From NCBI GenBank assembly GCA_038087015.1, contig JASBNA010000024.1, positions 1 to 64,000 on the forward strand: 64,000 nt of DNA. The letters run 5' to 3'. A program made the translations under genes and the position numbers. Shown here one piece after another: positions 12,082 to 64,000 of the stretch; the stretch's first letter is position 1, and the number at the start of each line of letters is the position of its first letter. Source of the stretch: Cerrena zonata (taxonomy: Eukaryota; Basidiomycota; Agaricomycetes; Polyporales; Cerrenaceae). Under the pieces are notes generated by a model, which worked only from the letters and a program-made list of their open reading frames with translations, had not been told where the DNA came from and searched no databases.

Positions 12082-15000
12082 TTAAAAGAACAAGCTGAAA
12101 AATAATGCAAGAACACCGAGAATTGTAGGTATTTGGCTGTTTGCAACACCATCATAACTGGTCACAGTATGAGAAGCCAGATTTGGGGACTTCGAAGTTG
12201 AAATCGCTAATGTAGTACTGTCAACTTTAGTATAAGCAGCCGCAACTGACTGGGTGACACCAGTGCCTCGCAAACTAGCATCGCTGTCTGTGCTAGCACC
12301 GGTTTCCAAAATAGAATCTTCTGAACCCGTACTTGTTCTGTTAGGCGAAGTATTATCTCCAGTTTTCGATCCATCATTTGAGTTGGCTCCTGATTTAGAG
12401 TCTGAAGTAAGCCTCTCGCCTGATCCATTGTCTGAACCATTGCCTGAACCATTACCAGAGTTAGAACCATTACCAGATCCATTACCAGAGTTAGATCCAT
12501 TACCAGAGTTAGATCCATTACCAGATCCATTACCAGAGTTAGATCCATTACCAGAGTTAGATCCATTACCAGATCCATTGCCAGAGTTAGATCCATTACC
12601 AGATCCATTGCCAGAGTTAGATCCATTACCAGATCCATTACCAGAGTTAGATCCATTACCAGATCCATTACCAGAGTTAGATCCATTACCAGATCCATTA
12701 CCAGATCCATTACCTGATCCATTACCAGATCCATTACCAGATCCATTACCTGATCCATTACCAGAGTTAGATCCATTACCAGAGTTAGATCCATTACCTG
12801 ATCCATTGCCTGAGTTAGATCCACCACCAGTACCACCATTAGGTTCCCCGCTTGAAGAAGCCATTGACCCGGTATCTGAAGTTCTCGAGATCAGATCACT
12901 TACGCTTGACAGGTGAGCCGTTGTATTATTGGGAGACATAGAGGTATTAGCTGTAGGCGTGCTAGACCTCAGAGCATCAGCAAGTGTAGAGCTAACTGAA
13001 CCAGAAGAGCTATCCTTAGACGAAATTCCGCTTGTAGGCCCAACCATTGTCACAGAAACAAAGCTTGACTTAAAGCTAGAAGGCAACAGTTCACTAGTAA
13101 AAGACCTGGAACCAACAGAAGAAGCTCCACCAGTTATGGATGCTGGGTCAGAAGAAGCTCCAGAAGCACCACTAGAAGAAGCACCAGAAGCACCAGAGGA
13201 ACCACCACCAGTTATGGATGCTGGATCAGAAGAAGCTCCAGAAGCACCACCAGTTATAGATGCTGGGTCAGAAGAAGCTCCGGAAGCGCCAGAGGAAGCA
13301 CCACCAGTTATAGATGCTGGGTCAGAAAAAGCTCCGGAAGCGCCAGAAGAAGCACCACCAGTTATGGATGCTGGATCAGAAGAAGCTCCAGAGGCACCAC
13401 CAGTTATAGATGCTGGGTCAGAAGAAGCTCCGGAAGCGCCAGAGGAAGCACCACCAGTTATGGCTGCTGGGTCAGAAGAAGCGCCAGAAGCACCAGAGGA
13501 AGCACCACCAGTTATGGATGCTGGGTCAGAAGAAGCACCAGAAGCGCCAGAGGAAGCACCACCAGTTATGGAGGCTGGATCAGAAGAAGCTCCAGAGGCA
13601 TTAGAAGAAGCACCAGAAGCACCAGAGGAAGCACCACCAGTTATGGATGCTGGGTCAGAAGAAGCTCCAGAAGCACCAGAAGAAGCTCCACCAGTTATAG
13701 ATGCTGGGTCAGAAGAAGCGCCAGAAGCACCAGAGGAAGCACCACCAGTTATGGATGCTGGGTCAGAAGAAGCTCCAGAAGCACCAGAAGAAGCTCCACC
13801 AGTTATGGATGCTGGGTCAGAAGAAGCGCCAGAAGCACCAGAGGAAGCACCACCAGTTAGAAGACGCACCACCAGTTATAGATGCTGGGTCAGAAGAAGA
13901 ACCAGAAGCATCACTAGTTAAATAGATAGGTTCAGAAGAAGCTCCAGAAGCACCACCAGAAGAAGCTCCACCAGTTATGGATGCTGGGTCAGAAGAAGCT
14001 CCAGAAGCACCAGAAGAAGCTCCACCAGTTATGGATGCTGGGTCGGAAGAAGCTCCAGAGGCATTAGAAGACGCGATGTTTGTAAAACTGTCTGACGCGC
14101 TATTGGTTGCATCGCTAGAAATTTCTGCAGGTGCACCGGAAGAAATACTAGACGATGTACCACTTGTCATAGAAATAGCATTAGAAGATGTTATCGGAGA
14201 TTGACTTGCTGATATGACCGAAGAGCTGAATGTAGGTTGGCTCGTACTTGAAACAGTAGAGGAGATTTTGCTGCTTGAACTGCTGCTTGAACTGCTGCTC
14301 GAACTGCTGCTCGAACTGCTGCTCGAACTGCTGCTTGAACTGCTGCTCGAACTGCTGCTCGAACTGCTGCTTGAACTGCTGCTTGAACTGCTGCTTGAAC
14401 TGCTGCTTGAACTGCTAGTTCCAGGGACGAGAACAGCTATGGTCTCTGTCCCAGTAGTACTTGTGAAGGGAAGAGTAGTGGTCTTGGTAGTGGTCCCGGT
14501 CCAAATTGAAGTGGTCAGAACGATTTCTCTTCCAACCACATTTGGTTCAACGATTTTGTCATTATTAGTCCAAGTGTAGTCAAGGTCATTAGAGTAATTG
14601 ATAATATCGAACAAACATTTGTAAGTATTGGTATAATGGACTTTAACATTCTTGGATGTTGGGGTTACCACAACATCTAAGAATGGACGCACCCAATCAT
14701 CAGCACCAGAATATGAAATTTGAACACTAGTACTTGAACAAGAATCGAGTTTATAAGAAAGAGAAGAAGTTTGTGAAGGGTGATACCAGTCATTGATGAA
14801 GCTAGCTGCAACAACTTCAAGGGTTGAACAATCAATCAGAGCAGATTCAAAAGACATTCCCAAAACACCAGAATATTTGGTACTAAGTAAACAATTACCA
14901 TTACCAAGAAGAGAATATTCTTGTTTCAGATCAGGATGGATCTTACGATCTACAACCATAGTAATTGGGCCATAACCCTTTGAGCTTAAATCAGTATTGA

Positions 15001-15529
15001 CACCACCGTTATAGTAAACGCTTGAAGTTAAAGTATTTTTACCGTCACTCCAACTAATTGTATTGGTACCAGCATTGAGTTTTGCAGCACAAGCGAGATC
15101 AGAACTATCAGTACCTAAACCGGAATTGAAGGTGAAAGGGATAGTCACACTTCCAACCACATTAGTAGAAGCAGTAACAATACTTGAGACGGTACATAAC
15201 AATTGAGAATCAGTATTTTTATCAGTACTATTTGAAAGGTTACAAGTAGCAAACGATTTACCGTTGGCAGCTAGCTTAACCGAAGTTGCAGAAGAAGTAA
15301 ACCTGTCCACACAAGGTAATGTTAATTGGAAAGTATCACCGGCTTTCACACCAGATATGGACCAGCTAAGAGTAGCTAACCAATTAGGATTTTGAGGAGA
15401 TTGGAAGGAATAACCAGCAGCATCACTCCAAGTAATTGAAGAAATACCAGTGAAGACCCCGTAAACGGCGGAAGCCTCAACATAAGCACAACTGAATAGT
15501 ACTAATAAAAAGTAAGAGAGGAAAATCAT
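12082..15529 (-). CDS. Second Als-family GPI adhesin, reading frame broken by +1 shift in its repeats
   Basis: Signal peptide at residues 1-19, then an Als N-terminal domain clearly paralogous to its neighbour: ITWSD, GDTFQLTLPCV, and eight cysteines in the same places. A T-like motif (SIWTGTTTKTTTLPF) and a run of about 55 serines (14268-14418) follow. Next come 16 copies of a roughly 18-residue unit containing ASSDPASITGGASS, then a Gly-Asn-Ser tract (GNGS units) and a GPI tail (IPTILGVLALFFSLFF). The N-terminal frame (13817-15529) meets a stop 56 bp after the C-terminal frame opens (12082-13872). At 13858 one extra base remains where about 36 bp of a unit should be, a +1 shift. If bridged, the protein is about 1148 residues with all domains. 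It may be a disrupted allele, a misassembled repeat, or a real frameshift. Confidence 0.85.
12418..12830 (-). repeat. 12-bp GNGS-encoding tandem array
   Basis: About 34 units alternate Gly-Asn-Gly-Ser and Asn-Ser-Gly-Asn in the stalk of the second ALS-like gene, just before the GPI tail. It is low-complexity, flexible and glycine-rich; the Asn/Ser content is typical of wall-protein stalks. Confidence 0.9.
13125..14060 (-). repeat. 54-bp tandem array encoding SDPASITGG units
   Basis: Sixteen copies of an approximately 18-residue unit (SGASGASSDPASITGGAS) encode the Ser/Ala/Gly-rich stalk. Some units are shortened by 12 bp. The frame break of the gene (13858) lies inside this array, where a unit has lost a number of bases that is not a multiple of three. 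Confidence 0.92.
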
Positions 15530-18612: not shown

Positions 18613-21274
18613 TTAAGAACTATTGGTTTGATGGTCCATATAGATATCTTCACCATTAGTATTAGTATTGTTGTTGTTAGCACCGTCATCTGCACTTGAT
18701 TCATTGATATTGGAAGCGGTATTTCCATAATTTGAAGTAGTGGCAGAATTACCGGTGTTAGATGTAGTATTGGATAAATTACTTGGGATACACCAATTTC
18801 TATGACAATGCCATGCTTTCATTTGACATTCTCTAGAACAATACTTGGTACGCTTACATCTTCTGCATTTTGAAAATTCTCTTGGATATTTTTCCCATTT
18901 ACCACATTCAAGATTCCCACATTGTCTAACACCTCCTTTAAAATCATTTCGACGACATGAATTTCTCATAATTACTCCTGACCAATAATACATGTCGGTA
19001 CCAGCTAAAAAGGTAAATTTTTCAACCATTGGAAATAAATTAAATTTTTTATATTCAACTAATGAATCATCATAATCATTTTCTTCATTTGAGTTATATC
19101 CAAATGGTTCATCATCAATATCAAAATTATCATAAGTATCATAATTCCATTTTTCTTTTAAATATTTCTTCTTTTCTAATCTTTTTTGAATAATTGAGTT
19201 ACTTAATTTTTTACTCTCCAATTCAATATATCTATTGATTTTATCACTGATATGAAATAGAGCAATTTCTCGATCTAAGTCGTTAACAATCGATTCAGCA
19301 TCAATTATAGAATCATATAATTTACTTAAATATGAGCTATTTTCTTCACTTTTTAAATTGGTTCCTGCCAAACATGATAAATATTCTTCATCTTCGTCAT
19401 CTTCATTGTTCTTATCATCAAAATCATCTTCGTCATCTTCTGCTTCAGCATCTTCAATTAAATCCTCAACATCTGGCTTATTATTACATAAATCTAATTT
19501 ATCTTCATCCAATATAAAATCCTCGTTTTGAATACTATTTATGTCATTCAACATTTGAGGTGAGCTTGACGCTGAGGCATTAAATCTTTCCAAGTATGTA
19601 TTGGTAGTTATTGGATTGATATTTCTGATACTATTAAGACTGTTGGTACCATTTTCAGGAGCAGGGTCGATTGAAAAACTTATATCTTCTCAGTTTGGGG
19701 GTCATGGTTGGCCTTGAATTAATCTTCTGTTGTTTCTTTAATTTCATCTTCATTTGCTTTTGAAGATATAATTTCAATTGCTTATCCCGTATACTCATAT
19801 CTATTACTAAATCAGTATTCTGTAATATTTCTTTGAGATGAGGATATTTTGATATATATGCTAATAATTGTAAAGACCAAACGATATCATCATCTCTCGG
19901 AATAACAACTCCAGTTTCAGTAAAACTTCGAGGAGCAGATTTTGAAGTAACCATATTACCCAAATGAATATTTCGATCTTCTTGCAAATACAAATCTGAT
20001 AAAAATTGTAATCCATTATCCATTTCGTAATCATTGTCATCCAAGAATTTATCATCAAGTAAATCGTCCTCCTTTTCCTCTCGTAACTTTTTGATAATAT
20101 TGACAATTAAATATCTTCGCTTGATATCATTATTTGCTAAATTCTTGTTGGTAGATACACCATTGTTATTGAATTGTGTGCCACTGATCCCATTCACATG
20201 AACTAGCTTGAATAATTGATCTACGGTCAAACTATCATAGTCATCACTAGTTAAATTATCTGAGCGATTACCATTGAAAAAATTAGGCATAGAATTACTA
20301 TTGGGGATAGATGTGCTGGTAACTGTATCTGAAGCTAACGAAGGAGTTATTTGGATTGGAAAGGTAGAGCTTGAAAATGAGTCAATTTGATTTAAAAAAT
20401 TGCTGGTAGCATTGTCAATAGCTGTATTAATATTTCGATTATTATTATTGGTATTATTATTATTATTATTTGTAGTTGTATTATCAAATGCGACTTCTTG
20501 AGTGGATCCAACTTCTGGAAAAGATTCACTTGCAGTAGCAGGTGCTGAATCGGGTTGACTATTAAGGTTCTCCATATTCATATTACTTTGAGGTTGGTTA
20601 TGTTGAGTTGTAAACAGGAGTCCCGTATCTTGAGTTGGCGCAGTTCTATTGGTTACTTGAGGATCTAATGTAGGTGGTTGATTTCTTTGGGTATTAAGGG
20701 TACGGCGATTCTGCTGCTGCTGCTGGGCTGGAGGCCTTTGTTGTTGTGGATTGACATTGGATTCATTTGACAGGCGCAATTGGGTTGATGGTTGTTGGCA
20801 ATTAAAATTTTCATGCCCACAACCTGGACGTACATTTGCATGAAGAAAAGTTCTTTCATGAATAGTTAAGTAATTATCTAAGACAGTGGCAATAATGGGT
20901 AACATACCAGCCTTAACAACTTTTTGTCTTATTTTTTCGGTACCCCTTGTACCTACTAAAACTAAACATTGGAAAGCCAAAGTCCATTTCCAAGCGGTGA
21001 GTAGTTTCTTTTCGCTATTGAAAATATTATCTTTTAAATTGAAAGTCAGGTTATGACATTCGTGTAAAATCTCAATCAACCGTTCAATCCCACCATCATT
21101 TGATAAAGTTTCTCGAACTTTAGCCGAAGATGAAACGAGGTAAGTTAAATGATTTAAAGAATTGACAAGAGGTTTATCGGACGTGACTTCTAAAGCTCTT
21201 CTATCATAAAGACTAGTGGTGATGGTCACCGCAGCTTTATTACTTGATACAGACTTGTAATTTGAATCTCTCAT
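18613..21274 (-). CDS. MUB1: Mub1 MYND-finger ubiquitin-ligase cofactor, with one +1 frame break
   Basis: Mub1 partners Ubr2 and Rad6 in ubiquitylating Rpn4. The N-terminus (MRDSNYKSVSSNK, then VTITTSLYDRRALEV) closely matches yeast Mub1, so the start is the ATG at 21274 and not the longer open frame to 21475. The armadillo-like N-terminal half (KVRETLSNDG, WKWTLAFQCLVLVGTRGTE) is followed by a Gln/Asn-rich linker, then WSLQLLAYISKYPHLK. The C-terminal MYND zinc finger is intact (CGNLECGKW, CRRCKRTKYCSREC, HRNWC), preceded by YYWSGVIMRNSCRRND. The first frame stops at 19655-19657 (TCC TGA A), and the MYND half continues in the +1 frame. Skipping one T there gives 886 residues without a gap. 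The shift lies in a poorly conserved linker, so its exact base is uncertain within about 40 bp. Confidence 0.88.
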
Positions 21275-22133
21275 ATATGCTTTTATAAAATTTCTGAATA
21301 ATTGAGCTTGATGATTTAGAATTTCATGAAAAGAATTCTTGATGCAAATATACCAAATGAAAAACGTAAATTGGATCGAGTTGAAGTTGTCTGAACTTGA
21401 AATAATACTATGAAGTGAATTAATTGAATAACCAAAGTGAATAAAGTCTAAAAGGACCAAGTAGAAATAAAGCAAACAGCTCCGCTAATACAAGAATAAT
21501 CGAAGCTTATTAATGAAAGTATAAGTGAACTCACTTAATGGGAAGAAGAAAGTATAATGAAGTCCGAGATGGCAAATCAAGGATACAGAAAAAAAAAAAA
21601 CCAAAAACCTAAATGACCCTGGATGGAAGGCAAAACAAAATTCAATCAACGAAAACTAAAATTGAAGCCTAATTTGATGTAACTTCTCGATAATAAGATC
21701 TGGAGTTGGGCTATATCCAAGCACTCTGCGTGGCGCTGATGACTAAGGAGAATTCAGGGGTAGGCAAAGACGTTCAAGCAAGAGCCCTCAAGATTCCGCC
21801 AAGGCAACACTAATTACGTCGAGGTTATAGATGATACAAGCCTTATGGATTATCTGGGCCGTAATCGATTCAAATTGGTTGCAAATGTCTCTAATCAAAA
21901 AGCACTATCAAAAACTCTATTATTCCAGTTCTGTTGATACTGTTTTTTTTTTTTGTTTGTTTTTGGAACTAAAGATCCGTACATTTTCTGGCTTCAAATT
22001 TTGCCACTTACCGGAATTCCTTTCTCCCTTGGATTCTGTCACGTGTAAAGTTTCATTTCCGGTCGCGGGGATATCAGATAAACTTCAAGATAACCAAATG
22101 GAACAGATGAATGGGGCATAAGAGGGTATTGGC
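21275..22133. other. Divergent promoter region MUB1 / DUF3074 gene
   Basis: No gene seen. A TCACGTG E-box (Cbf1-like) lies at 22039-22045, about 90 bp upstream of the start at 22134. A short plus-strand open frame (21831-22121) has no recognisable features. Confidence 0.55.
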
Positions 22134-22871
22134 ATGAATTCACAACCGTTAAAGGATCTCAGTAAGCTCTCCTCCAAAGGGTTGCTTGAGCAGTCACGGG
22201 AAATCATTGAATCTATGGCTACCAGTTGGAACCGGAACAAGTCGTATCAATTCCGATACGACGATCAAACCATTACTACCCAAATTTATACCAAAGACCA
22301 TTTGAACGACGACTACTGGGCTGGAAGGATAACCACGTGGAGTGATGGTTTTTCCAAAGAGTTTAAGCAAGGTTTGTTCAGCAGATTCATGAAGTATGGG
22401 GTTGGTCTGTTGGAGTCTTTAGAGAAAAGTCATACTGAGTATGAAAAGGAGTATATTGATATATTCTATGGGTCGAAACTTAAACCCTTTGAGCTTGAGG
22501 AAACTGACCCGAGCTATACTTCGATTAGTTATCTTGCCGAATGTTATTATGATTTGGGATTCCCGTTGAAAAAAAGAGTCTTTTATGAACTAATTCATGT
22601 ACTAAAGTCGGTCGATGGATCGGAAGCTTATGTGATATCATTAGCAGTTGATCCATCTCATTTAACCGATTCGAAATCTTCCTTTGTTCATGCAGTGTAC
22701 ACTTCGATCGAAAAGTTCACTTATCAAAATGAAAAATTATCTTGGAAAATGTGTACATGTTCAGATCCTGGTGGTCTAGTTCCTTCTTATATTACAAAAT
22801 TGTCTATAAAAAATGCTATATCTAAAGATGTTCCGAGTTTCTTGAATTGGTCAAGGACTAAGTCAGTTTGA
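22134..22871 (+). CDS. DUF3074 (START-like) domain protein
   Basis: 245 residues. The C-terminal two thirds fit the fungal DUF3074 family, a START/Bet v 1-like lipid-binding fold: KKRVFYELIHVL, VISLAVDPSH, YTSIEKF, WKMCTCSDPGGLVPSYI and a closing AISKDVPSFLNW. Those pieces occur in the family's order, including the SD-x-GG and KDV-x-x-FL-x-W signatures. The function of the family is not established; lipid binding is an inference from the fold. The start is the only sensible ATG. The gene overlaps the 3' end of the opposite-strand CCZ1-like gene by 14 bp. It uses CGG arginine codons in frame without any frame break, which matters for interpreting CGG near shifts elsewhere. Confidence 0.72.
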   Translation: MNSQPLKDLSKLSSKGLLEQSREIIESMATSWNRNKSYQFRYDDQTITTQIYTKDHLNDDYWAGRITTWSDGFSKEFKQGLFSRFMKYGVGLLESLEKSHTEYEKEYIDIFYGSKLKPFELEETDPSYTSISYLAECYYDLGFPLKKRVFYELIHVLKSVDGSEAYVISLAVDPSHLTDSKSSFVHAVYTSIEKFTYQNEKLSWKMCTCSDPGGLVPSYITKLSIKNAISKDVPSFLNWSRTKSV

Positions 22872-25137
22872 AGCTATCTAGCCATAATTTGACGTCATCT
22901 CCTAAATTATCCAAAAATCCTAAATTAACATTGCCAGCAATATTATTTAAGAAATTTCCTTCGTTTTCTTCTAATGATACTGAATTAACTTTTTTTTGAT
23001 TTTTTTTCTTTGAACTATGATGTCGATTTTTAATGATTATAATGAATCTATTAGGATATTTAATATAATAAAACATCCAATCGTTGGTCTTATTACTATT
23101 GAATTTATGTAGATATTCCCCGATACTACTTTCATCATTGAAAAATTCTCCATTATTTCTAGTGATGAATAAATCGATTAATTGATCATGTAAATGAAAT
23201 ATAGCGTTTTGGTATCTTAAAACAACTTTATTGATCTGTTGGTCTTTTTCTTCCTCTTGTGGCTGTTGTTGTTGTTCTTGTTGTTCATTATCGTTTTCTT
23301 GTTGTTCAAAAATCGCAGGAATAGGTAAAAATGGTAATGATGACTGAATTGAATAATCTTTATTGTTGTAAATTACATAGAAAAAATCATTGTCAGGTTC
23401 AGGAGATTCTTTTTGATTAAACATTGTATTGAACGATCCAATACTGTTTCCCAAAATGCTTCCACCTAATAAAAAATTAGTAATTGTATCAGTAATTGGA
23501 TTAAGAATCATTTCTTTCAAAGTTTTATAAAAATCGTACTCATGTAATCCATCATAGGAAGAATCATAAATTAATGTCACGTAGATATTATCTTTTGAAT
23601 AAACAACCAACAGATACTCTCTTTCTTCAACAATGATTTTATCTTTTTTAAATACCTTCGTGCTTAAATAAACTGGTCGGGTGAATATAAACTTATTTCC
23701 AGATTCGTCATTTTTAAGTCCAATTAAATATTCACCATGGTCACTTTCTGATTCACTCAACTCGGAAATCGTATCAGGAGCTTGACTTTCATCTTCATTA
23801 TTTTGGGCTGAGCTATAACTAAATGGATTTAAATAACTCGACACTGATAACCAGCTATTTCTGTTTGAGTCTTGGGGTGGCTGTTGCAGTTGAATATTTG
23901 TCGGCTGTTCTGTTCTCATTACATTTCCACCTAAATTTATAACACTATTCATTGTATAATTTAGTGGCAGAATGACCAAATTATTCGTTAGACTTATTGG
24001 GTTCAACAATTCTAACGCAGCAGTAGGACTAATTTTGAGTCCGTAATCGGATTGATTTGATGGAGTATTTGAACTTGACGTCGTTATAGGTGTTGATATT
24101 TTTTTCTTAATGGAATCAGATGATGAAAAAAATTTCCCACTACTTCTGTTGGTTGTTAGTTTATTTGAATCCAAATTATCATGATAATCATGATATTCCA
24201 ACCAGGTATAAATGTCCGAAAGGGAGGCTCTATCTATAATACTTTCACTGTATTCCTCTGAATATTCATCATCAAAATTGTCACCATGAACTAAACCATA
24301 CTTTTTGGGAAGCTGTTTATCGAAGTAGGAAATTAAGAAGCCCTTCGGAGTTGCTTCCAGCCTTTCCAGGCGAATTTTTCTATGTAAAGTTTCTTTTATT
24401 TCATTTATTGCAGCATAACTTAGATTAATAGAAGACTTTTTGAATGTAGGATCATTAAATGAACCATTTGGATCGGTAATCATTCCTAGAAAGCCTCCGT
24501 AATTGAGACTATTGGTCCATTTTAAATCAGGTGGGAATTTAAAGATTTCTGAATTATAAGCATCCAAGAATTCTTGCCAATAAGTCAGCAAGATCACTTT
24601 CATATCTTTCAAATCCAAAAATCTTGAAAGTTTACTGAATGACGAATTTAGCATGAAAAAGTACCTATTTGCTTTCTCGAGTATTTTTAATAATTGATTA
24701 ATGATGGAATCTGCTTTACCTTCAATCTGTGAGGGGATTGAAACTGAACACGCAAGGTAATACTTATCTTGTAAAACCTTAGTAATAGTTGTTGAATTGG
24801 AACTCTTAATTATACTGGTTTCATCATTGTGTGATTCATTGAATGCGTGAGCTAACGAGTTGATCCCTCTCAACAATCCAATTATATTCAAATGTTCCTG
24901 GAGAATAGTGTCATTGGCTTCCAAAACCCCTTGGGCCTGTGGGGTTAAAAAGCATAAGACTTGGTTCTGCAACTGCTCATTTGATTCTTCTTTATCATCA
25001 ACTAACTCTGGATTATAAATCGTGATATAATTTATCTTCGCAGCAGAGTCCTGGTCAGCTTGAACATAGGCTGACAAGTCTGTCCCTCCCTTCAAATTCG
25101 ATATCAGTGAAATAAGATTAGTGAAGTAGTTATTCAT
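22858..25137 (-). CDS. CCZ1: Ccz1-like vacuolar trafficking protein (longin domain)
   Basis: 759 residues, intact. The N-terminus has the CCZ1/INTU-type longin start: YITIYNPELVDDKEE, then QNQVLCFLTPQAQG, then an amphipathic INSLAHAFN helix. By family, Ccz1 with Mon1 forms the GEF for the Rab Ypt7 and drives vacuole and autophagosome fusion. The middle is Ser/Asn-rich low complexity. Later segments (YLSTKVF, EREYLLVVYSKDNIYVTLIY, FYYIKYPNRFIIIIKNRHH) look like the second and third longin-type sheets. Length is close to yeast Ccz1 (704). Identification rests on a few motifs and overall layout. The last codons (FKLT with a CTG) overlap the convergent DUF3074 gene by 14 bp. Confidence 0.65.
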   Translation of the reverse strand: MNNYFTNLISLISNLKGGTDLSAYVQADQDSAAKINYITIYNPELVDDKEESNEQLQNQVLCFLTPQAQGVLEANDTILQEHLNIIGLLRGINSLAHAFNESHNDETSIIKSSNSTTITKVLQDKYYLACSVSIPSQIEGKADSIINQLLKILEKANRYFFMLNSSFSKLSRFLDLKDMKVILLTYWQEFLDAYNSEIFKFPPDLKWTNSLNYGGFLGMITDPNGSFNDPTFKKSSINLSYAAINEIKETLHRKIRLERLEATPKGFLISYFDKQLPKKYGLVHGDNFDDEYSEEYSESIIDRASLSDIYTWLEYHDYHDNLDSNKLTTNRSSGKFFSSSDSIKKKISTPITTSSSNTPSNQSDYGLKISPTAALELLNPISLTNNLVILPLNYTMNSVINLGGNVMRTEQPTNIQLQQPPQDSNRNSWLSVSSYLNPFSYSSAQNNEDESQAPDTISELSESESDHGEYLIGLKNDESGNKFIFTRPVYLSTKVFKKDKIIVEEREYLLVVYSKDNIYVTLIYDSSYDGLHEYDFYKTLKEMILNPITDTITNFLLGGSILGNSIGSFNTMFNQKESPEPDNDFFYVIYNNKDYSIQSSLPFLPIPAIFEQQENDNEQQEQQQQPQEEEKDQQINKVVLRYQNAIFHLHDQLIDLFITRNNGEFFNDESSIGEYLHKFNSNKTNDWMFYYIKYPNRFIIIIKNRHHSSKKKNQKKVNSVSLEENEGNFLNNIAGNVNLGFLDNLGDDVKLWLDSFKLT

Positions 25138-25315
25138 CTTTAACCACTGCTTCCACTGACACTTTTATCGAGATATCTGGGAAGAATATGACCTCTTTTG
25201 TTTTTTTTTTGCGTGTGCTGATATTAACTACAAATCGCGATTTGATAACGTCTACAGAAGTTGATCTTAATTTGCAATCCTATTATTTACAGAAAGATAC
25301 TATACTAAGTAGGAA

Positions 25316-28006
25316 TCAGTGCAGCCATAGTTCGGCCCAACCAATGTTCTTTCTTACCGCATTGGAGAAACCTTCGTTATATTTGACCCATATTCTTGTA
25401 GCTTCATGATTTGGGTCCTTTTCTCTACCATTATCTTTTTGCAATTGACTTGAAAGACCATCGTATTTGTTTTTGAAGAAATCAACAGAGTTGGCTGGTT
25501 TGGCCCTTTTCTTCTTGGTGTTTTCCTTTTCTGCCTCTTCCTTTTGTTTTGAGATTGGTCCATCTTCAATTCTTCTTTTTGAAGCTCTACTGGCCATTAG
25601 CATCAATTCAATTTCCGATTTGATTAGTGGGAATAAACGATGTCTTTTATTTTGTACTAACTTGGAACGGGCCAAAGAATTAATTGGGGCTAGATGGTTT
25701 TCGAAATTGACTATGCTGTCCCAATCGTTGGAGAAATGTAATGTTATTAAACCAGATTCCACGTCTTTTTGACTTTCTAATTTCAAATTAAAAGAATGTA
25801 CTAAATTAGCACACTTTTGAATTGATTTTATCTCATGATCTTGTTTGATCTTATTCGAGGCTAATTCAGGGGATAACAACCTATCTAAGAATGGTAAAAT
25901 ATGGCAGGAGAACGATTCCGAGGATTCTGAGGATCCGAATCCCATGCTTACTTTTGCACTCAATGGGATAATTTCAAGAAGTCTTTTCACAGTAGACTTA
26001 TTTTGTTTCATGACTTCCATAGTTTCAAAATCAAGGTTTCTGCTATTGGGTATCAAGCTAGTGTCGCTGGCATGTTTACGAGGGTTTATTTCACTGAATA
26101 AAGACCATACTTTCATCGTTACCAAACTCGAATAATTATTAGCATCGTTTTCTAGTTTTATGTTATCATAAAAGCTGAACCAATCACTTAATTGAGAAGG
26201 CTTTTTTAATGAATCGTCCTGTAGATGAACAACATCTAAATATCTATTGAAACAGCCTCTAACGACTTTATCTAGGGATCCGGAACTAGAGACTGCAGAT
26301 TTACCCTTACCATTTGAAATCAGATCTAATAGTTTTTCAAACGCTTCGTCTTTTGATAATTGAGCATCTCTTTTAAAGAGTTGGTCTACCATTGCAAACC
26401 ATGTCAATTGAGTATCTTTATTACCGTTGGTCTTCTCTCCTCTCAATGTGTAAATTGTGGGATCAAGTTTGCGACCATTGAATTGAAGATAATTGATACA
26501 AGCTCTCATATCACATTCACAAACTTCAACAATCTCACTTATTTGTTGGTAATCCAATCCAAGTTTCTCAAACTGACTGATTTTCATCAAGTGATCTTTA
26601 ACACTTCTCAATGCATTACCACTGGATATAGAACCGGTTCCCGATTTCGTAGATTGTGGTTTTTTAAAGGCCACCATTTCACATAAGGGTCTCAATTTTT
26701 CCATTGGAGATCCGGTGTATCTTGATGAGCTAGTCAGATAAATATCGTTAGGCAATACAAATTATTGGTCTATTCAATACAAATGGTTTCTTCTTCAGTT
26801 TCTTTGTGTTGGAATTAATTTCAATATTTCCTTGTTTGTTTCTTGATAATGTTCTTTGATCACTTTGGCATAAATCATTCAAGACTTTGACAATTTCATT
26901 TGCATTTATACTCGAATCAATTTCATCAATAACGAGACAAGTGGGTCTTCCTTTGGAAGTGATACTATTTGTGGTTAAAGCATTAATGATCTTTAACTTG
27001 AGGGCAGCCGAGGCATTTTGAAATGCATTTCCAGTAGCACTGCTTGCTTGGGGTAAAGTATCCATACTATTTGCAGCGTTTAGTTCTTGAACTGAGTACC
27101 CCATTTGTTTTGCTAAAATATGAACAATAGCTGTTTTACCAATACCCAGGGGACCATGAACCAATAGAACTTTTTTATGAGGACGACCTAATGCATCAAT
27201 ATTTTCACCCACAAAATCTTCACCGTGGACTATGGCAGACCATTTTTTCAACCATGATGATACCAACCGATATTGTTTATCATTTCCGGCAGAACAAATT
27301 TGCAAAAAAGTTTTTGGGTTTGTATTTTTCACTCCAGACTATCGACTCATTCTTTTTGGGCTTTTTAGTTTGTTTTTCAAGCGATAGGAGCTTATCTCTA
27401 TTTTCTTTATCCTTTTGTTGTTCTCTTACTCTATCAAATAAAACATCCATATCATACAAATTTCCACTACTTTCTTGTCCTAGTTCTTCGATACTGGCAA
27501 GATGTCTTTGTCTTCTTTTTGGTTTAAGTCTTATCTTCTCACCAGTGAAAAGCTTAACTTCTTTTCCTCTATAAGTTGTGTCTTCAAGTTCAGGAGAATT
27601 TTCTGCTGTTTCACTGGAGTCTCTATTTTCTTCATCAAATAACGCATTGTTTTGGCCATTAGATGACCCATTGGATAAAATAGAGTTGGACATGTTAAAT
27701 ATAGAAGATTGGGAAGCGTCTTTGGCCTGGGTCACACCACTGAATAAGAGTGAGTCCGACATCTCAAACTGATTTGGATCCTGACGATCTGGTATCGAAT
27801 CAACATTCTTAGAGCTGGAAAATAGCAAAGAATTTTGCGTATCAAAATCATTTATATTACCCCCATCCTTTTCGAGAAATTCAGTACTCGGCTGGTGGTC
27901 ATTTTTGGATCCTTCGTTGTCTTTATTGGGAGGATTGAATAACGGTGACTGATCTAGAGAAAACCCTAACGAATTTCCCGACCTTATCTTTTCAGGTCTC
28001 CAGCAT
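25316..28006 (-). CDS. CTF18: Ctf18, alternative clamp-loader large subunit, with three +1 frame breaks
   Basis: Ctf18 replaces Rfc1 in the Ctf18-Dcc1-Ctf8 RFC complex that loads PCNA and supports sister-chromatid cohesion. Visible are VWSEKYKPK, Walker A (GPxGIGKT, x encoded by CTG), Walker B (CLVIDEIDSS), RPIICI and NDIYLTSS, MEKLRPLCEMVAF, and a near-invariant C-terminus (WVKYNEGFSNAVRKN). The gene is split into frames 27280 and up, 26748-27332 and 25316-26755. The only ATG that fits (28006) reads four codons, then ACC TGA A at 27994-27992; skipping T enters the long frame. The second break is at A5 (27311-27315) or at AAA TGA T about 30 bp downstream. The third is GCC TAA C (26748-26750). 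With all three shifts the protein is 895 residues and covers the family end to end. Confidence 0.9.
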
Positions 28007-28067
28007 ATTTAACTCAAATATCTATTGAAAGTATATATTAGCTATTGAAGCAGTACTATTTCACAAG

Positions 28068-28098
28068 GGAGAGAGAGAGAGAGAGAGTGAGAGAGAAA
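28068..28098. repeat. (GA)n microsatellite in CTF18 promoter
   Basis: About 30 bp of GA dinucleotide repeat with one interruption, between the CTF18 start and the 3' end of KRE6. Confidence 0.85.
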
Positions 28099-28135
28099 AC
28101 AGTATTCTTAGTTAAAATCTTTGAAACAACGCGAT

Positions 28136-28141
28136 ACGCGT
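28136..28141. promoter_or_regulatory. MCB element (ACGCGT) upstream of CTF18
   Basis: ACGCGT lies about 130 bp upstream of the CTF18 ATG. MBF binds this element and drives G1/S replication genes in yeasts, and CTF18 is an S-phase gene, so the fit is good. It is a single site, and function is inference. Confidence 0.5.
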
Positions 28142-28193
28142 AAGGTTAATATCAATATCCTGCACACAACCACTAAATCATATAAGCAGAGTA

Positions 28194-30449
28194 CTAAAAC
28201 ACTGGCACGGGAGCTTCACAACCATCCATCATCTTGTTCTTTGGCCTTCGGTACCCAGCCTGTTCCCATGAAGTCAAGTTGAAATTGGTGTATGCATTCA
28301 TGTGTCTATTTATATAGTCGGTAGTGGGATAGTCAACCGGATCACAAGTCATTTCAACCGAGTCTTTTGGCTGATATATTCTTACATAATCCACCTCAAG
28401 TACGGCTGGAAGCTCTAAAGAAGCAAAGTCAATATCCATCCAGGTGGGAGAAAGACCTAGATTGAATACTAAGGACATTGGCTCTCGAGAGATCTGTCTC
28501 CAGCCCACACCAGTCTCTGGATGTAAAGCATCGCCATAAATTGTTAACGTTGGATCATTTCCTAGAAAGAATTGGATATAACTATCCCTTTCATTTGTTT
28601 TAGCACTCATGTATTCATAACCATATGTTTGGAAATGAGTGTTATTATCTAAATGTTCTTTATTGTCGCTATCGTTACGGACTGAATCAAACCAAGTATT
28701 ATTCAAAACTGTAATTGCAGCAATTGCTTCTTGGGTCGGTGTTCCAGTATCTTCCTTCATAAAAGTAACAAATTTATCTCGTATCTTCATATAGCTATAA
28801 TCTGGTCTCCACCAAGGATCAAAAGGAGCAACTTGTAAAGTTTGAACTCCCAACCCCCAATTTGCTTGTTTATCATGGGATCCTTCAATTATATCAATTT
28901 CTGGAGCACCTCTACCAATTCCAGGACTAGGGTGATCCTCATCAAAACAAGTACACCTACTAAGTCTTTGGCCAGGCAAGTATGATATGCCATCGGGTGA
29001 TGATTGATTTGGAGTTATACCAAAATCACATTCATCGTACGTATAGGGCCAAACGCCATCGGTGGTGGCTTGAAACCCTGCCCGAGCCAAATTTCCTAAA
29101 GACCAAATAGCAGGCCATAAACCTCTGGATTGAGAGTATGCTGGCATTTTTATACTGACAACCACTTTTGCATTTTTATTGAAACATAACTTATTCCAAC
29201 TTTGAAGCATACCCGATCTGTAATCTAATCCATTAGTTGGAAAAGCATCGATTTTGATTTGCAAGGTACCATTCTTTGTCTGAATCATATCGGGTACGTA
29301 GAATTCCAAATCTGATGTAGCTGCATAGTGAATGTCTTGGGCCGTGAAAAACTGGTCTTCTCCTTCATAAAAAGTTCGTCCTTCTGCGTTGAATTCATCG
29401 GAAAACACCAATTTCCAAGTGTCTTTTGATTCAGAAGAAAACATTTCATATGCTTCTTTAGGGGTATCTGGATCAATTAAAGATGTTCTTATCGCTGCTA
29501 ATGTTGGATATCGATATGGTGAGAGGATTTCATAAACTTCTGGGTCTGGGGAACCATAATACTTTTTGGCATATGAAACCAAAAATCCAACTGACCCAAA
29601 TACGATTAAAGCCAATAACCCAATGGTTGCAATTAAATAACCGGTTTTATTTTTACTATTCCAATATTTTGGTTTATAAAAATTCTTGCCAAAGTGTTTC
29701 AAATGGCCAGTGGAGTTGTCCTTCAAGTCTAAATTATCCTGATCAGTCATTAAAACTCCGCTTAGGTTGACTAATTGATACTGCTCTCGTGGAGACTTGT
29801 CAGTTTTGAGAAGGTTTTGCAATGTTAAATAATCCTTTTCGGCCTCCACAGTACGAACTCTTTGGACAATATCCTGCTTTTTATCTTGGGAAATAAATGA
29901 ATTGTTCGAATTATCAGAGCTTCCATTTAGAGCTTGAGTGGTAGAATCTTCACTGAGATAATAATAGGGACCTTCTAATTTGTCTAAAAACCTAGCTGGC
30001 GGTGAATGATTAATGAAATACCTTGAAAGGTTTTTATCTGCCCTTCCTGATAAATGAATGTATGAATTTTCTCTATTCAATAATCTTTCATCTTTTTTAT
30101 GAAAATTAGGATGTCTTGTTCTCGATTCATGATAATTATGGCCATCCTCATTTACTGTCTCATTTCCAGATTGCGCCATTTTAAACATATCTGCTATCTT
30201 CTTTCTTGACTCTAAATCATAACTTGGGCTGTCGTTAACTCCTCTTATACCAATTCTTGAAAGGAAAGTATTTGATTTGAAAGAATCTTCGCTATACCTT
30301 GGATATTCAAGATTCTCTTGTAAGGAACCTTCAACAACAGAATTTGTTCCAGTATTAGAACCTGAAGTAGATGGCTGAGAACTATCATAAGTCAAGTTTG
30401 GGCTACTCAAAGGGATTTTCTTTTCTTCCAGGTTGGATTCAAGAACCAT
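28194..30449 (-). CDS. KRE6: Kre6/Skn1 beta-1,6-glucan synthesis protein (GH16, type II membrane)
   Basis: 751 residues, intact. The cytosolic N-terminus of about 265 residues is Ser/Asn-rich, followed by one membrane anchor (GYLIATIGLLALIVFGSVGF) and a lumenal GH16-like domain starting SPYRYPTLAAIRTS. The catalytic-type motif EIDIIEGSHD is present, along with WKLVFSDEFNAEGRTF, SRGLWPAIWSLGNL and a C-terminal VDYVRIYQP. Family role: synthesis of cell-wall beta-1,6-glucan in the secretory pathway, the polymer to which GPI adhesins such as the ALS proteins here are attached. Length matches Kre6 (720) and Skn1 (771); which of the two it corresponds to cannot be told from sequence alone. Confidence 0.93.
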   Translation of the reverse strand: MVLESNLEEKKIPLSSPNLTYDSSQPSTSGSNTGTNSVVEGSLQENLEYPRYSEDSFKSNTFLSRIGIRGVNDSPSYDLESRKKIADMFKMAQSGNETVNEDGHNYHESRTRHPNFHKKDERLLNRENSYIHLSGRADKNLSRYFINHSPPARFLDKLEGPYYYLSEDSTTQALNGSSDNSNNSFISQDKKQDIVQRVRTVEAEKDYLTLQNLLKTDKSPREQYQLVNLSGVLMTDQDNLDLKDNSTGHLKHFGKNFYKPKYWNSKNKTGYLIATIGLLALIVFGSVGFLVSYAKKYYGSPDPEVYEILSPYRYPTLAAIRTSLIDPDTPKEAYEMFSSESKDTWKLVFSDEFNAEGRTFYEGEDQFFTAQDIHYAATSDLEFYVPDMIQTKNGTLQIKIDAFPTNGLDYRSGMLQSWNKLCFNKNAKVVVSIKMPAYSQSRGLWPAIWSLGNLARAGFQATTDGVWPYTYDECDFGITPNQSSPDGISYLPGQRLSRCTCFDEDHPSPGIGRGAPEIDIIEGSHDKQANWGLGVQTLQVAPFDPWWRPDYSYMKIRDKFVTFMKEDTGTPTQEAIAAITVLNNTWFDSVRNDSDNKEHLDNNTHFQTYGYEYMSAKTNERDSYIQFFLGNDPTLTIYGDALHPETGVGWRQISREPMSLVFNLGLSPTWMDIDFASLELPAVLEVDYVRIYQPKDSVEMTCDPVDYPTTDYINRHMNAYTNFNLTSWEQAGYRRPKNKMMDGCEAPVPVF

Positions 30450-31563: not shown

Positions 31564-32479
31564 TTAATTAGCATCAAAAGCTCTTGGAGCTTCACCTTCA
31601 GGACCAATGTATTTAGGATCTCTCCAAGGACCGTAATCATTTAAGTATAATTGATCATCGGTGACTTCGGATTTACCACCGAATTTGGTTGGTAAATTTT
31701 CAGCAGGAATTTGTTTTAATAATTCTTTGGAGTAAGAAGAACCCAAAATATGAATTTTAGAAACGGTAACTGGATCTAAGAAAGGCTTAAATAATTTAAA
31801 AGCAGTTGAGAAACCAAAAGGAGCATTAATTAAGTAAAATTTCCCCATTCTTTCTGGATAATAATCTTGACCAATTTTAGAAGCTTCTTTAACGTAACCA
31901 ACAACGTTATAAGCAGCACTGATTGAGATACCTTTTAAATCCATAATGGTACAAGGAGGTTTCAACCAAATAGTCTCTTTCTCTTGAACAAGCAGCCAAT
32001 CTATATCTAGCAAAAGATTCATATTCCCAAACCAAATTTTTTAACATTCTATCTTGAGTAGTTAATTTTAACATTTCATTTAAATTAACTTTACCCAATT
32101 CTTCAAAATAAACCGGTCTACCATCTTTATCAGTTTTATGATAATATTGAGGATACAATTTAGCAACCAATGGTTTTTCATCGTAATGGAAATCAGTTAA
32201 AATATTATTGGTACCAAATTCTTTTCTCCATTTTTCACATTCAATAAACATTTGTTTGGTTTTTTCTAAATCAAACTTTCTAGCTCTTAAAAATCTCAAT
32301 AATGATGCATCATCTAAACGTTCAGTGTATCCTAATTCTGATAATTGATCATGAAGTTGCTTTAAAGTTTGCTTTTGAGCTTCGGTTAAGTTTGAAGTAT
32401 AACCGGTTTGGTCTGTTGGAGCGTTAACTTGAGGAAAAGAAGCCAAATATTCGGCTTCGGAAAGTGGTGCTGCACTCAT
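31564..32479 (-). CDS. SEC14: Sec14 phosphatidylinositol/phosphatidylcholine transfer protein, one +1 frame break
   Basis: Sec14 exchanges PI and PC and is essential for Golgi secretion in S. cerevisiae. CRAL-TRIO N domain: [27 protein letters not shown] lipid-binding domain: [46 protein letters not shown], and the C-terminal [12 protein letters not shown]. The start is the ATG at 32479 ([11 protein letters not shown]); an upstream TTG in the same frame is not used. The first frame ends in residues unlike any Sec14, and the second begins in the middle of the conserved CTIMDLKG motif. One extra T at 31954 (TCC T TGT) separates them. Removing it gives 304 residues, the normal length. The shift point is fixed by conservation on both sides and is not at a stop codon. 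In a gene expected to be essential, either the base is an error or the ribosome shifts. Confidence 0.95.
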
Positions 32480-36100: not shown

Positions 36101-37069
36101 ATTGATTTTATAATATTATTCCAACGTAATTCTTTAATTTGACCAATGAATAAAATATTTGAACTATCAAAGATAGAATGATGAACTTCTCTAATTTCCG
36201 AAGACATCATTGATTTAATATCAATTGAATAAAGAAGAGTACCATCTAATTCACTAATAAAATTCAACATACCATTACTTTTCAAAACCCCCATTGTATA
36301 AAACCAGCCTTCATTTATATTATCAAGATTTGAATTTTGTTGATGAGATTGATGGTGATTGTTATTATTTGAGTCAAGATTGGTTAAGGATTCGAAATTA
36401 CTCGAATCAAAGATATTTGCTTGATAAATTGGAGCTTTTGGACCAGGAACAATTTTTAAATTTTTTTGTTTTGATGGAATTGGACCATAAATTTTATAAC
36501 GACAAACCAATAATTCATGAGGAGTACTTGAAGAGCTAGTTGATTCAAAAACTTTATTATCACAATACCATTTTTTCACCAAACCAGCTGGTTTTAAAGA
36601 TTGCCAAACTATTAATGAACTAATTAAATTACCAAAATTACTTTTGGAAGGTACTTTGATATAAATTTTTTCATTATCATAAGTTTTAATGAAAATAACC
36701 GGAGGCTCATCATGAGCATTGGTATTGTTTGAATTCCCATTATTGTTTTTAGGCAGAGTGGTTGTATTTGATGTATTATTAAGGGATCCATTACTGGATT
36801 TTTTCAGTAATTTTTTTTTAGAAGTATGATTTGATGGATTCGAAACATTCAACGTTGGATAGATCTGAACGTAACACGATTGTAACGATTGTAAAAGCAA
36901 ATAATGAGTATCATTTTCATCATTTGAATATAATTGTCCCTGATGAATTTATCGATAATGAATAACTATGGATCCAATTGATTGAATCGGACGAAATTAA
37001 AAAATTCTGTCCGGAAAAAATCCCCTTATTTCTAGCAATAACTTTATGGAAAGGTGTAGAATGCTTCAT
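33121..37069 (-). CDS. BUD2: Bud2-like GTPase-activating protein for Rsr1, with four +1 frame breaks
   Basis: RasGAP with an upstream C2-like region, the layout of Bud2/Cla2, which inactivates the polarity GTPase Rsr1 at the bud neck. The C2-like part contains VEVMWGLPWSRT-type sequence (AEVVMWGLPWSRTAMV), and the GAP core has FIFLRFFCPAILNPKLF. The C-terminus is Gln/Asn-rich. The frame runs 37069-36920, then 36921-35740, then to 33591, then 33592-33437, then 33438-33121. Breaks occur at AAA TGA T (36922-36920), near GGC TTC or TTT TAG T (35737-35755), at GTT CGG or AGA TAA T (33591-33599), and at CCC TGA A (33439-33437). All four are +1, and skipping one base at each gives 1314 residues with no leftover. 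The assignment to Bud2 rather than another RasGAP is from domain order and is probable, not certain. Confidence 0.78.
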
Positions 37070-47016: not shown

Positions 47017-48113
47017 TTAAATTGCAATAAAAGCATTTAAATCAAATTCACGTCTATCATTGAAAAATCCATCAATTTCACCATTCAAAAATGAAGGTTC
47101 GATAGCTGGATTTTCAAATTGATTAAATTCTTCAACTTCAGAATTATAATCGGAAGTTGGAGTCAAAATTTCTTCATTTTGATTAGTTGTATTTAAAAAC
47201 AGTTCAATTTGATTATTGAGAGTCATGAAATCTTGTAAATCACCCAGTTTATTATTTGGACTTGGAGGTAAAGTTGGAATCTTCTTGGCTGATTTAGCAA
47301 CCTTCAGTTTTTTCAAATTTGGACCATTATAAGTTTTAAATTGAAATTGATTTTTTCTTCCTCTTTTATTAACTGGTTTTTCAGTTGATTTTTCAACTGG
47401 TTTTTCAACTGGTTTTTCAACTGGTTTTTCAATTGGTTTTGTAATTGATTGTGTAGGTTGCTCTTGGAATTGGCAATGGTAATCCAAATATTGATTGAAA
47501 TTGAATTGATTTTGAATAATAAAGATTCGATTTCATTTGATTCATTAAAATTTATTCCTAATCCAACATTATTGACATTTGATTCTAAAAGGGTATTAGA
47601 AAGGCTATCATCCTGCACATTGGCCAGTGCGGCAGCGGCATTAGTGTCAAAATCGGTAAATTGATGAGGTGCGTCGATTGGTGAGAAATTTCCTAAATAG
47701 GAAGGATTACTGAAGATTGAATCATTATGAGAAACATCACTAATTGAATCACTAGATAAATCTAACATTGGAGATTCCATATTAATTGGAGAATCACTTA
47801 ATGATTTGGTAGTAGCGATAGAAGCTTCTGATTTGACTGGAGACAAATCAACAAAAACAAAATCAGTTGGCATACCTGGTTTTGTCTTTGGTCTTCTTGA
47901 TGGAGGTTTTCTTGTAGTATATGATTTACCAGCAGCAGCAATTTTCAATGAATTTTGTAAGCATTCAATTGAACTATTTGATTCTTGCCCTGATGATTGA
48001 CTTGAGCTAGATGGAGTTCTTCTAACTCTCCATAATTTCTTACCATTAGCTGGAGGTAATATTTTCCTATTCTTGTTAGTATATATTGCAATTGACTTAT
48101 TATAAAGTAACAT
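47017..48113 (-). CDS. Uncharacterised Ser/Asn-rich basic protein, probably regulatory, frame broken once (-1)
   Basis: The first frame (47313-48113) starts with a clear ATG; a basic segment (NRKILPPANGKKLWRVRRTP) is followed by Ser-rich sequence, RKPPSRRPKTKPG and TDFVFVDLSPVKSE. The second frame (47017-47487 and somewhat upstream) encodes Gln/Asn-rich sequence, EKPVEKPV repeats, KRGRKNQFQFK, and an acidic C-terminus. The codon character of the first frame decays after about 47530, where the second frame becomes plausible, so one missing base (or two extra) near 47520-47530 would give 365 residues. I do not recognise the family. Basic patches plus acidic tail suggest a nuclear protein. The 2.3-kb upstream region with many CCTAATTAGG palindromes suggests a heavily regulated gene. 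Confidence 0.6.
47370..47450 (-). repeat. Short in-frame EKPV repeat
   Basis: Five copies of a 15-bp-like unit (GAAAAACCAGTT) encode EKPVEKPVEKPV in the second frame of the 47 kb gene and NQLKNQLKNQ in the other, so both frames stay open across the junction region. Confidence 0.75.
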
Positions 48114-59547: not shown

Positions 59548-59777
59548 AAAGAAAACTTTCAGACACGGAATAAATGTCTGATTAGGTAATATTACAGTTT
59601 ACCGAAATTACATGTGAAGGATTTTGCAACTACATTAAATTTAAGTGAAAACAATTTATTACTATATAACCAACAAACGAATGTAGATTAGCCAAAACAT
59701 TCATTACATTCCACCACCTGTAGAATATTTACAAGAAATATAATAGAAATGCTTTAACTAACCTATCCCCCAAAGTT
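59315..59777. other. AAC/SPE2 convergent region with poly(A) and inverted repeats
   Basis: After the carrier stop there is an A16-T13 palindrome (about 59431-59460), a likely end-of-transcript hairpin. Then an A38 run (59506-59543) sits between the 10-bp inverted repeats GTGTCTGAAA (59499-59508) and TTTCAGACAC (59557-59566). Confidence 0.7.
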
Positions 59778-61027
59778 TTAATTGGCACTTTTTTTAAAAT
59801 TTAAGTACAATAAATTGTATTCGTTTTTCAAATCATAAAGAATCTTTTCTTGTTTGGTATAACCAATTTTATTTAAGATTTCATCACAATTGATCAAATC
59901 GTTTAAATCATTATTAGAAGTCTGTTTCATTTCATTGATTAAAGTAACACTGAAATTGCCCGGTTCAAAAATTGATAATATTTTGATCAAAACTTGAGAA
60001 ATCGATACCTGATTCGATTCACTAAATGGATAATTGGTTTCAAACGATGCATATGACCAACCTGATTCCGGAGTGATATGCAAGGTATAATAGTAACCAC
60101 CATTTTCTAAATCAATCGAATTTGATGAATATCCACATGGACTAAATGAAAAAGCATCGTGGATAAAGTCAAACTTGTTCAATGGAATAACTTCTGCATC
60201 TTCATCGTCATTGAATTCCATATTATCACTTAGGGATGGCGATGGTAATTGGACTTCGGAAGATTTGAAAATTGAATCTAAGCCAGTAAATTTCATTGTT
60301 TTATATCCATTTTCGTGTCCTTTATCATCATCTTCACCTAAACTATCAATTCCTGGTTTACGATCAGTGATGAAATTAATAGCTTTATTTGGATTCAATT
60401 CAGTCATCAATACTTCAAAAGTTTGATCATTACAACAATCATCATCAGAAACAACTTGTTCACCTCCCATATAAAGGTACCAATGATCGTCACTAGTGAA
60501 GTCCCCAACAACGTAAGATTTCCCGTTAATGAAAAACTCATTCAATAACTTCACTTCATTTTTCCAATCACGATGAACGTGTTTTTGTTTATCAGGAAAC
60601 ATAAATGATCTTCTTGAATAAAAAATTTTAAAATTTTAAAACTATCAATACTTTCACCCAAGTACTTACAAATAATCTTGAATAAATCTTCTAAACAAGC
60701 TAAAGTTGTGGTAGTACCACAAGTCTTCAAAATCAATTTATGTGGGAAAACAAACAAAGATGATTCTGATAAGAGATAAGAATCCATATATTTAGATGAT
60801 TTCATCGACAAGATTTTGCAATTAACTAAATCCAAAATCTTAACCCAATCATCTAATTTAATACTTCTTAATCCTTCCTTGGTAATACCATCCGGAATTC
60901 TTGACTCATTTGACCAAAACCATATTTCTAATAATTTTTCTGGTCCTTCAAATGCAAATGTAGAATCTAAATTTGCCAGAAGTTCATGATCAATATAGTT
61001 ATCTTCAATGTAAGCAGGAGCAACCAT
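59778..61027 (-). CDS. SPE2: S-adenosylmethionine decarboxylase proenzyme, one frame break (-1)
   Basis: Spe2 makes decarboxylated AdoMet for spermidine and spermine synthesis. Family start region ATLDST-like (NLDSTFAFEGPEKLLEIWF), the self-processing site LLSESS (cleaved before Ser to form the pyruvoyl group), the catalytic CGTTTTL, and the C-terminal half with TFEVLMTELNP, PCGYSSN, YYTLHITPE and WSYASFE. The start is the ATG at 61027 (MVAPAYIEDN). The frame breaks at about 60626, where a T6 run should be T7: the first frame reads KFF then goes out of phase, whereas the family has FYSRR. With one base added the protein is 416 residues (yeast 396). This break is in a homopolymer and in the direction opposite to most others in the window. 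Confidence 0.94.
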
Positions 61028-62279: not shown

Positions 62280-62296
62280 CTAAACACTTGAAACGA
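62209..62296 (-). repeat. 26-bp tandem repeat spanning the VPS1 stop codon
   Basis: CTTGAAAAGG-type units start at 62209, 62235, 62261 and 62287, an exact 26-bp period. The last copy lies in the final codons of VPS1, so the 3' flank appears to be made by tandem duplication of the end of the coding region. Confidence 0.85.
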
Positions 62297-64000
62297 TTTC
62301 ACTTGCGTTTCTCAAGACTTCAACCATCTTCAAACATTCTTTTCTCTTTTGAACAGTCAATTCATTTTCTTTAACCAAATCACCTAAATCAGGAGAATTA
62401 TATAATTTTTCTAATAATTCTTTTTGAATATCTTCTTTTGATTTAACAATTAATTTCAACATGATAGCTTTTGGAACAACATCGGCAACAGTTCTTTTAA
62501 CTATATTGAAATAAGAAGAAATCAATAATTTAATAACTTCAGTTTCCATTGTTTCTCTTTCAGTCATGGTACCAGTAGCTCTCAAGACTGGAGGAGGGGC
62601 TTCCATACTTTGTAATCTCTTTTTATTTTTAGAAGAGAAGAATCCACCAAAGAAACCGTTTGAATTGTCATCTTTTGGAGATTGTTGTTGAACTGGTTGT
62701 TGACTTGGAGGTAATGGTTTACCAGTTTTTGGATCAACAGCAACTTGAGGTTTTGGATGGAATTTTTCTTCAACAATAGCCATTGCTTGACTACCTTTTA
62801 ATAAATCTGGATGAGCAGTGTTAACATAAGTTTCTTCTGATTTGATAATATCAGTAACAAATGTATTACAAGGAATTAAAGCATCTCTTAAAAATTGAAT
62901 GAAATGATTAGATAATTGTTCTTTTAATTGAGGATAACGAGAATATTGAGTTTGACTAATAATTTGAGATAATATTCTTACCAATTCATCAAAAATTAAA
63001 TTAATACAACGAGTAGAAGGTTCTTCCATTCTATGAATTTGTTGTTTGACTAAGACTTCGAAAGCTTGAGTACCAACAAATAATGAAGGAGCAGAACCTG
63101 AAGTATTATGCATAATTGTTCTAATATCAGCATCTTTAATTTGATCATAAGGATCTAAAGCATTAATACCATTTTTGAAAATTTCGTGGAAAACAAAAGA
63201 AATACGAGCACCACCACTTAATTCTTGAGAAGTTAATTCTCTTGCTTCACCATTTAAAATTCCATTATAATCTTTTGAGAAATTAGTAATCATATTAAGA
63301 GCAATTGAAGTTGGAGATTCACTCATTTCTGGTCCTAATAAACTTAATTCATTTTGATATTTTTTCAAAGAATGTTCAATTCTCATCTTGATATCTGGTA
63401 AAGTACCTTTAATATGATGTAATAAAATACCATTTAATTTTTTAGCTAAATATGGAGTACCACAGAAATGAGCTTTTGCTTTATAAGATGGATGATTTTC
63501 AAAATAATTACTTTCATCTTTCAAAGCTTCTCTAATAGTTTTTTTCTGTTCGATATCTTTTTGACCTCTATTTATAACTGGAACATAACCAAATCTTAAT
63601 GGAATAACTCTACCAGCCAAAATATCAATAACATCAGTACCATGATCCATTAAGTCAACTTTTGTTAAAACACCAATTGTTCTTGAACCTTCAGGATCAA
63701 CTTCTCTTGCCAATTTTAATCCATCTGAATTAGCTAAATCAGTGTTTCGATGCATTAACTGATAAAATAATTGCATTTGGTTTTGAAATAAATTTCATAA
63801 TCATTTCTCTAATTTGTCTTTCAATATCCTTTGGTTGATCTCCCACTGGAACTTTAGTTAAACCTGGTAAATCAACTAATGTTAAAGTTAAAACATGAGG
63901 TGAATAAATTCTTAAATTAATTGGACTTGCACTAATTCCTAAATTTTTACCAGTTTTAGCATCGGTTTCTCTAACAATTTCTTCTCTAATTTCTTCAAAA
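62280..64000 (-). CDS. VPS1: Vps1 dynamin-like GTPase, 5' end outside window, one +1 frame break
   Basis: Vps1 is the dynamin of vacuolar sorting, endocytosis and peroxisome fission. The GTPase domain part shows VLTKVDLMD (G4 region), preceded upstream in another frame by [13 protein letters not shown] sequence and [10 protein letters not shown]. Middle domain, then a Pro/Gln-rich insert (about 62600-62730) in place of a PH domain, then the GED ending at the stop. Reading down from the window edge, the frame stops at CAC TGA T (63741-63739), and the conserved [17 protein letters not shown] continues in +1. Conservation of the N-x-D-L-A motif puts the extra base at about 63747-63750 (GCA TCGA AAC), six or so bases before the stop. 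The gene continues beyond 64000. Confidence 0.95.

Follow-up and report, generated by a model that had tools for sequence, protein, structure and literature searches.

Frame breaks in conserved yeast genes of a Cerrena zonata assembly: very probably single-base consensus errors rather than programmed +1 frameshifts

Programmed +1 ribosomal frameshifting in Saccharomyces cerevisiae is described, in the excerpted text of one account, for Ty1, Ty3, ABP140, EST3, OAZ1 and YFS1 (PMC12719033). For nanopore assemblies of the fungus Drechmeria coniospora, excerpts of another study report that polishing adds more insertions than deletions and that runs of one base are more often too long (PMC7500977). 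The subject of the present analysis is a window of 64,000 bases (bases 1-64000 of the 577-kb contig JASBNA010000024.1, here C24) from the assembly GCA_038087015.1 of Cerrena zonata (55.5 Mb, 171 contigs), in which conserved genes, among them UPF1 and BUD2, are broken into pieces that lie in successive reading frames. The assembly is a mixture of at least two fungi, one of them a CTG-clade-like yeast with a guanine-plus-cytosine (GC) content of about 35%. An initial annotation of the window had proposed thirteen +1 and two -1 frame breaks, to be explained by insertion-biased consensus error, by widespread programmed +1 frameshifting or by gene decay; its observation is partly confirmed and its interpretation partly supported by what follows. 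The breaks are very probably single-base consensus errors, an artefact of the assembly and not programmed frameshifts. Sequencing or assembly error is the most likely origin because near-identical copies of UPF1 and BUD2 read through the same places unbroken.

For UPF1, the intact first piece was compared with 5.8 billion proteins. The search returned P0034, a protein of 970 residues in a single frame, listed at 100% identity to the query and encoded on a 3.3-kb contig of the source 'lgn', presumably the Logan assemblies of archived reads. Its length is exactly the one predicted for the repaired gene. Placed on the window under the standard code, P0034 is distributed over three successive frames, with 809 of 812, 65 of 66 and 93 of 96 residues identical, and the frames meet at two breaks:

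40626 to 40632, plus strand: first UPF1 frame break (+1), exactly placed, at the junction between residues 812 and 813 of P0034
40822 to 40831, plus strand: second UPF1 frame break (+1), at the junction at residues 878-879 of P0034

A more distant UPF1 relative, P0035 (78% identity), is likewise unbroken.

The BUD2 gene gave a similar picture. P0154, found on two contigs of the source 'lgn', has 1318 residues in a single unbroken frame and is about 99% identical to the BUD2 pieces of the window; the 1314 residues predicted beforehand fell short by four, which lie in two in-frame gaps. On the window P0154 occupies five successive frames, with few differences apart from these small gaps, and four breaks separate them:

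36934 to 36943, minus strand: first BUD2 frame break (+1), at the junction at residues 44-45 of P0154
35748 to 35755, minus strand: second BUD2 frame break (+1), where tblastn pieces of P0154 in successive frames meet at residues 440/441
33596 to 33602, minus strand: third BUD2 frame break (+1), at the junction at residue 1161 of P0154
33436 to 33445, minus strand: fourth BUD2 frame break (+1), at the junction at residues 1213-1214 of P0154

The 78%-identical BUD2 relative P0155 is unbroken too. For the two genes in which this test was made, all six breaks (6/6) are therefore absent from the independent sequences P0034 and P0154, which come from what appears to be the same yeast species as that of the window. 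Since no residue of the protein is missing at the six sites, each of them carries one base in excess.

A codon-usage hidden Markov model (HMM) with frame switches was run on the window and on 13 ten-kilobase stretches, a sample with 124.0 kb of coding sequence from seven yeast-like contigs (C24, C47, C55, C15, C60, C100 and C140). In control runs the model gave no false break in 180 kb of synthetic genes and one in 69.7 kb of intact open reading frames (ORFs), and simulated insertions and deletions were recovered with the right sense in 123 of 128 and 126 of 128 cases, respectively. The whole sample yielded 23 breaks of the +1 and nine of the -1 class; fifteen of them (11 and four) fall in the window and 12 and five outside it, where two of the 13 stretches (L012 and L029) are without any. 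As expected of consensus errors, the breaks are confined neither to these genes nor to the +1 sense: they occur on seven contigs and run both ways, insertions outnumbering deletions. The insertion-biased error proposed at the outset is supported by this imbalance (23 against nine) together with the unbroken near-identical copies. The first BUD2 break, which only 44 residues precede and which the protein comparison shows, was missed by the HMM, and three weak calls in the window, at 14258 (-1), 42927 (-1) and 14415 (+1), had no counterpart in the initial annotation. On contig C55 (stretch 20001-30000, L015), three +1 HMM breaks lie within 800 bases, at about 3800-4600 of the stretch, in and next to a KRE6-like yeast gene. 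The fungus of about 47% GC in the same assembly was tried as a reference for the rate of breaks and dropped: six HMM switches in 19.8 kb were each accompanied by a fitting intron candidate, and the model is useless on this fungus because of its introns.

Chaperonin and HSP70 loci were also surveyed, the base composition of their contigs being sampled for some only. Of the chaperonin loci, nine were ascribed to the yeast: seven are uninterrupted, and two (on C15 and C58) consist of overlapping pieces whose starts are 587 and 596 bases apart, that is 2 modulo 3, in the -1 sense. The chaperonin loci on C36 and C113 were left out of the yeast count, and the two pieces on C36, should that locus be the yeast's, stand in a +1 relation.

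If the breaks are consensus errors, the extra bases would be absent from the DNA of the cell, and most errors would amount to a short run of one base lengthened by one base. The cause would be noisy long reads or over-polishing, aggravated by thin read coverage of the yeast; since the assembly mixes at least two fungi, the yeast may indeed have been a low-coverage member of a mixed sample. Inspection shows that every one of the six exactly placed junctions is compatible with a single run lengthened by one base; because 50.4% of simulated random-base insertions (n=3000) allow this reading too, the six of six are suggestive rather than strong. The six sites all touch a run of two or three equal bases, and the initial statement that few sites lie in homopolymers holds for long runs. 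A pattern of extra bases between CC and AA on either strand was considered and dropped, as over-long runs explain the same sites more simply. The uneven clustering of breaks put forward at the outset did not differ from chance: along the coding DNA of the window the variance-to-mean ratio in 3-kb bins was 0.99, a value reached by 3904 of 10000 random placements, for 13 breaks (the sites at 27993 and in the ALS gene and the three weak HMM calls being left out).

Several points weigh against consensus error. No break was found in the nine HSP70 loci taken as the yeast's (about 16 kb), a rate below that of the window, so that either the break rate is uneven or conserved genes fare better; one of the criteria for assigning the HSP70 and chaperonin loci was that they lie in one frame, which biases the rate low. 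Contact with a run of at least two bases says little, since 92.4% of 3000 simulated insertions also touch one. Moreover, several residue differences and two small in-frame gaps set P0034 and P0154 apart from the window, and the two thus represent another strain or haplotype; the presumed absence of the extra bases from the DNA of this isolate leans on another assembly.

Widespread programmed +1 frameshifting, by which ribosomes would skip one base per site and so produce full-length proteins, agrees with the way in which pieces in successive frames sum to such proteins. In addition, two of the six exactly placed junctions are followed directly by a stop codon in the old frame, which resembles the yeast antizyme site as the excerpted text presents it (PMC12719033). 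However, simulated lengthening of runs by one base placed a stop directly at the junction in 433 of 4000 cases (10.8%), and two or more among six are compatible with chance (probability 0.13). The breaks are not only missing from the near-identical UPF1 and BUD2 copies but are not kept in close relatives either, P0034, P0035, P0154 and P0155 all being unbroken for these two genes, and five known yeast +1 slippery heptamers, looked for within 60 bases of 13 window breaks, were found at none of them. Breaks of the -1 class also occur, and +1 skipping therefore cannot account for those. The proposal of programmed frameshifting finds hardly any credence in these data, and the same is true of the narrower idea that the few sites with a direct stop are real bases stepped over by a +1 shift, in a strain that tolerates frame-breaking insertions in conserved genes. 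Were programmed shifts the cause, +1 frameshifting in this yeast nuclear genome would extend well past the four chromosomal genes of S. cerevisiae given in that text (PMC12719033).

It is just as scarcely credible that the breaks are short introns of lengths not divisible by three. Generic GT...AG stretches of suitable length lie near 24 of the 32 breaks, a number that chance may produce with patterns so short; a yeast-type intron (GTATGT or GTATGA donor, TACTAAC branch point and AG), one narrow donor and branch-point pattern, was found within 200 bases of none of the 32, and the six exactly placed junctions cost the protein no residue. That the isolate carries real mutations, in decaying genes or in a mutator strain with an insertion bias, is very unlikely. 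Strain-specific insertions are conceivable, given that P0034 and P0154 stem from a different strain or haplotype. Against this, the yeast part of the assembly contains one copy each of UPF1 and BUD2, and relaxed selection is a misfit for six breaks in two genes that are otherwise about 99% conserved in amino acids. Neither gene has the traits of a pseudogene, which is dispensable or duplicated and carries further damage, and the suggestion of gene decay finds no support in either of them. SEC14, another of the broken genes, is essential in S. cerevisiae. Consensus error is the preferred explanation.

The remaining breaks of the window rest on domains and coding signal. Together with the six placed by protein comparison, SEC14 and VPS1 (domains), two sites in CTF18 and one in MUB1 (HMM) bring to eleven the +1 breaks that stand among the thirteen claimed; both -1 breaks were also recovered, SPE2 by its split profile and the HMM and the one in the ORF pair near 47 kb by the HMM alone:

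31907 to 32022, minus strand: SEC14 frame break (+1), near 31950-31960, within the overlap of two ORFs; Sec14p matches and HMM
63740 to 63776, minus strand: VPS1 frame break (+1); Dynamin_N profile divided between two frames, and HMM
26748 to 26755, minus strand: CTF18 frame break (+1); HMM switch at 26750, domains in successive ORFs
27280 to 27332, minus strand: CTF18 frame break (+1), near 27312; HMM switch at 27316
19655 to 19690, minus strand: MUB1 frame break (+1); HMM switch at 19687, MYND finger in the downstream ORF
60551 to 60602, minus strand: SPE2 frame break (-1); SAM_decarbox profile positions 2-105 and 114-343 in two ORFs, and HMM
47313 to 47487, minus strand: frame break (-1) in the ORF pair 47017-48113; HMM only

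One SEC14 piece matches S. cerevisiae Sec14p (chain 6f0e_A) as far as residue 182, and the other, in the next frame, takes up the match at residue 179. In VPS1, positions 65-139 of the Dynamin_N profile lie in one frame and 134-168 in the next, directly followed by Dynamin_M; the second Dynamin_N match scores 25.8 bits, slightly below the family cut-off of 27. Near 26750 the AAA domain of CTF18 occupies one ORF, and the next has an RFC1-like lid match that is below the family cut-off. A third CTF18 break, claimed near 27993, had no support from the HMM, in which coding begins at 27952. At the ALS site near 13858 what is seen is a +1 relation between the two listed ORFs, and a protein search with a low-complexity piece of the second ALS-like ORF gave no useful relatives. 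The ORF pair 47017-48113 matches no Pfam family and has a clear coding signal.

With regard to the mixed content of the assembly, a GC content of about 35% together with a yeast-like coding signal was found, among the contigs sampled, in C24, C47, C55, C15, C60 and C100; C140, with 39% GC, was grouped with them less surely. The sampled contigs C1, C2, C3, C20, C30, C40, C50 and C80 have 46-49% GC and little yeast-like coding signal. UPF1 is present in one yeast-like form on C24 and in a second form, in split pieces with 36-68% identity, on C3; these two GC classes and the second, split UPF1 indicate that at least two fungi are mixed. Among the named relatives of the window genes are Scheffersomyces stipitis, at 74% for UPF1, and Suhomyces tanzawaensis, at 74% for BUD2 across three quarters of the query; we take these relatives to be CTG-clade yeasts. 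UPF1 and chaperonin genes are present in both the 35% and the 47% GC contig sets, and genes of the 47% GC fungus look interrupted by introns. A 35% GC stretch of C10 (100001-110000, L019) has no yeast-like coding signal at the sampled place; as C10 also carries exon-like chaperonin pieces, the stretch is perhaps an AT-rich region of the 47% GC fungus. Mitochondrial COX1, sought as a high-coverage control, was found on one contig, C152 (7602-10004), in two pieces; several TGA codons lie in frame, as is the case in mitochondria where TGA encodes tryptophan. The contig may belong to the yeast or to the other fungus and decides nothing. If the breaks are errors, gene models in the sampled yeast part would suffer one split per roughly 4 kb of coding sequence (32 in 124 kb), and users of the assembly are affected by its mixing of at least two fungi as well.

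Compared with programmed frameshifting in S. cerevisiae, the breaks share the feature that the second frame is +1 to the first (PMC12719033). The S. cerevisiae system, as the excerpted text describes it, uses a defined heptamer that in YFS1 is conserved across most sequenced Saccharomycetaceae (PMC12719033), whereas here up to four breaks occur per gene, none of the five tested heptamers is near, and near-identical copies of UPF1 and BUD2 are without the break. The six placed sites lie at runs of only two or three bases, unlike those described in the excerpts on D. coniospora assemblies, with which the present breaks have in common single-base insertions or deletions that break conserved genes, an excess of insertions and over-long runs (PMC7500977).

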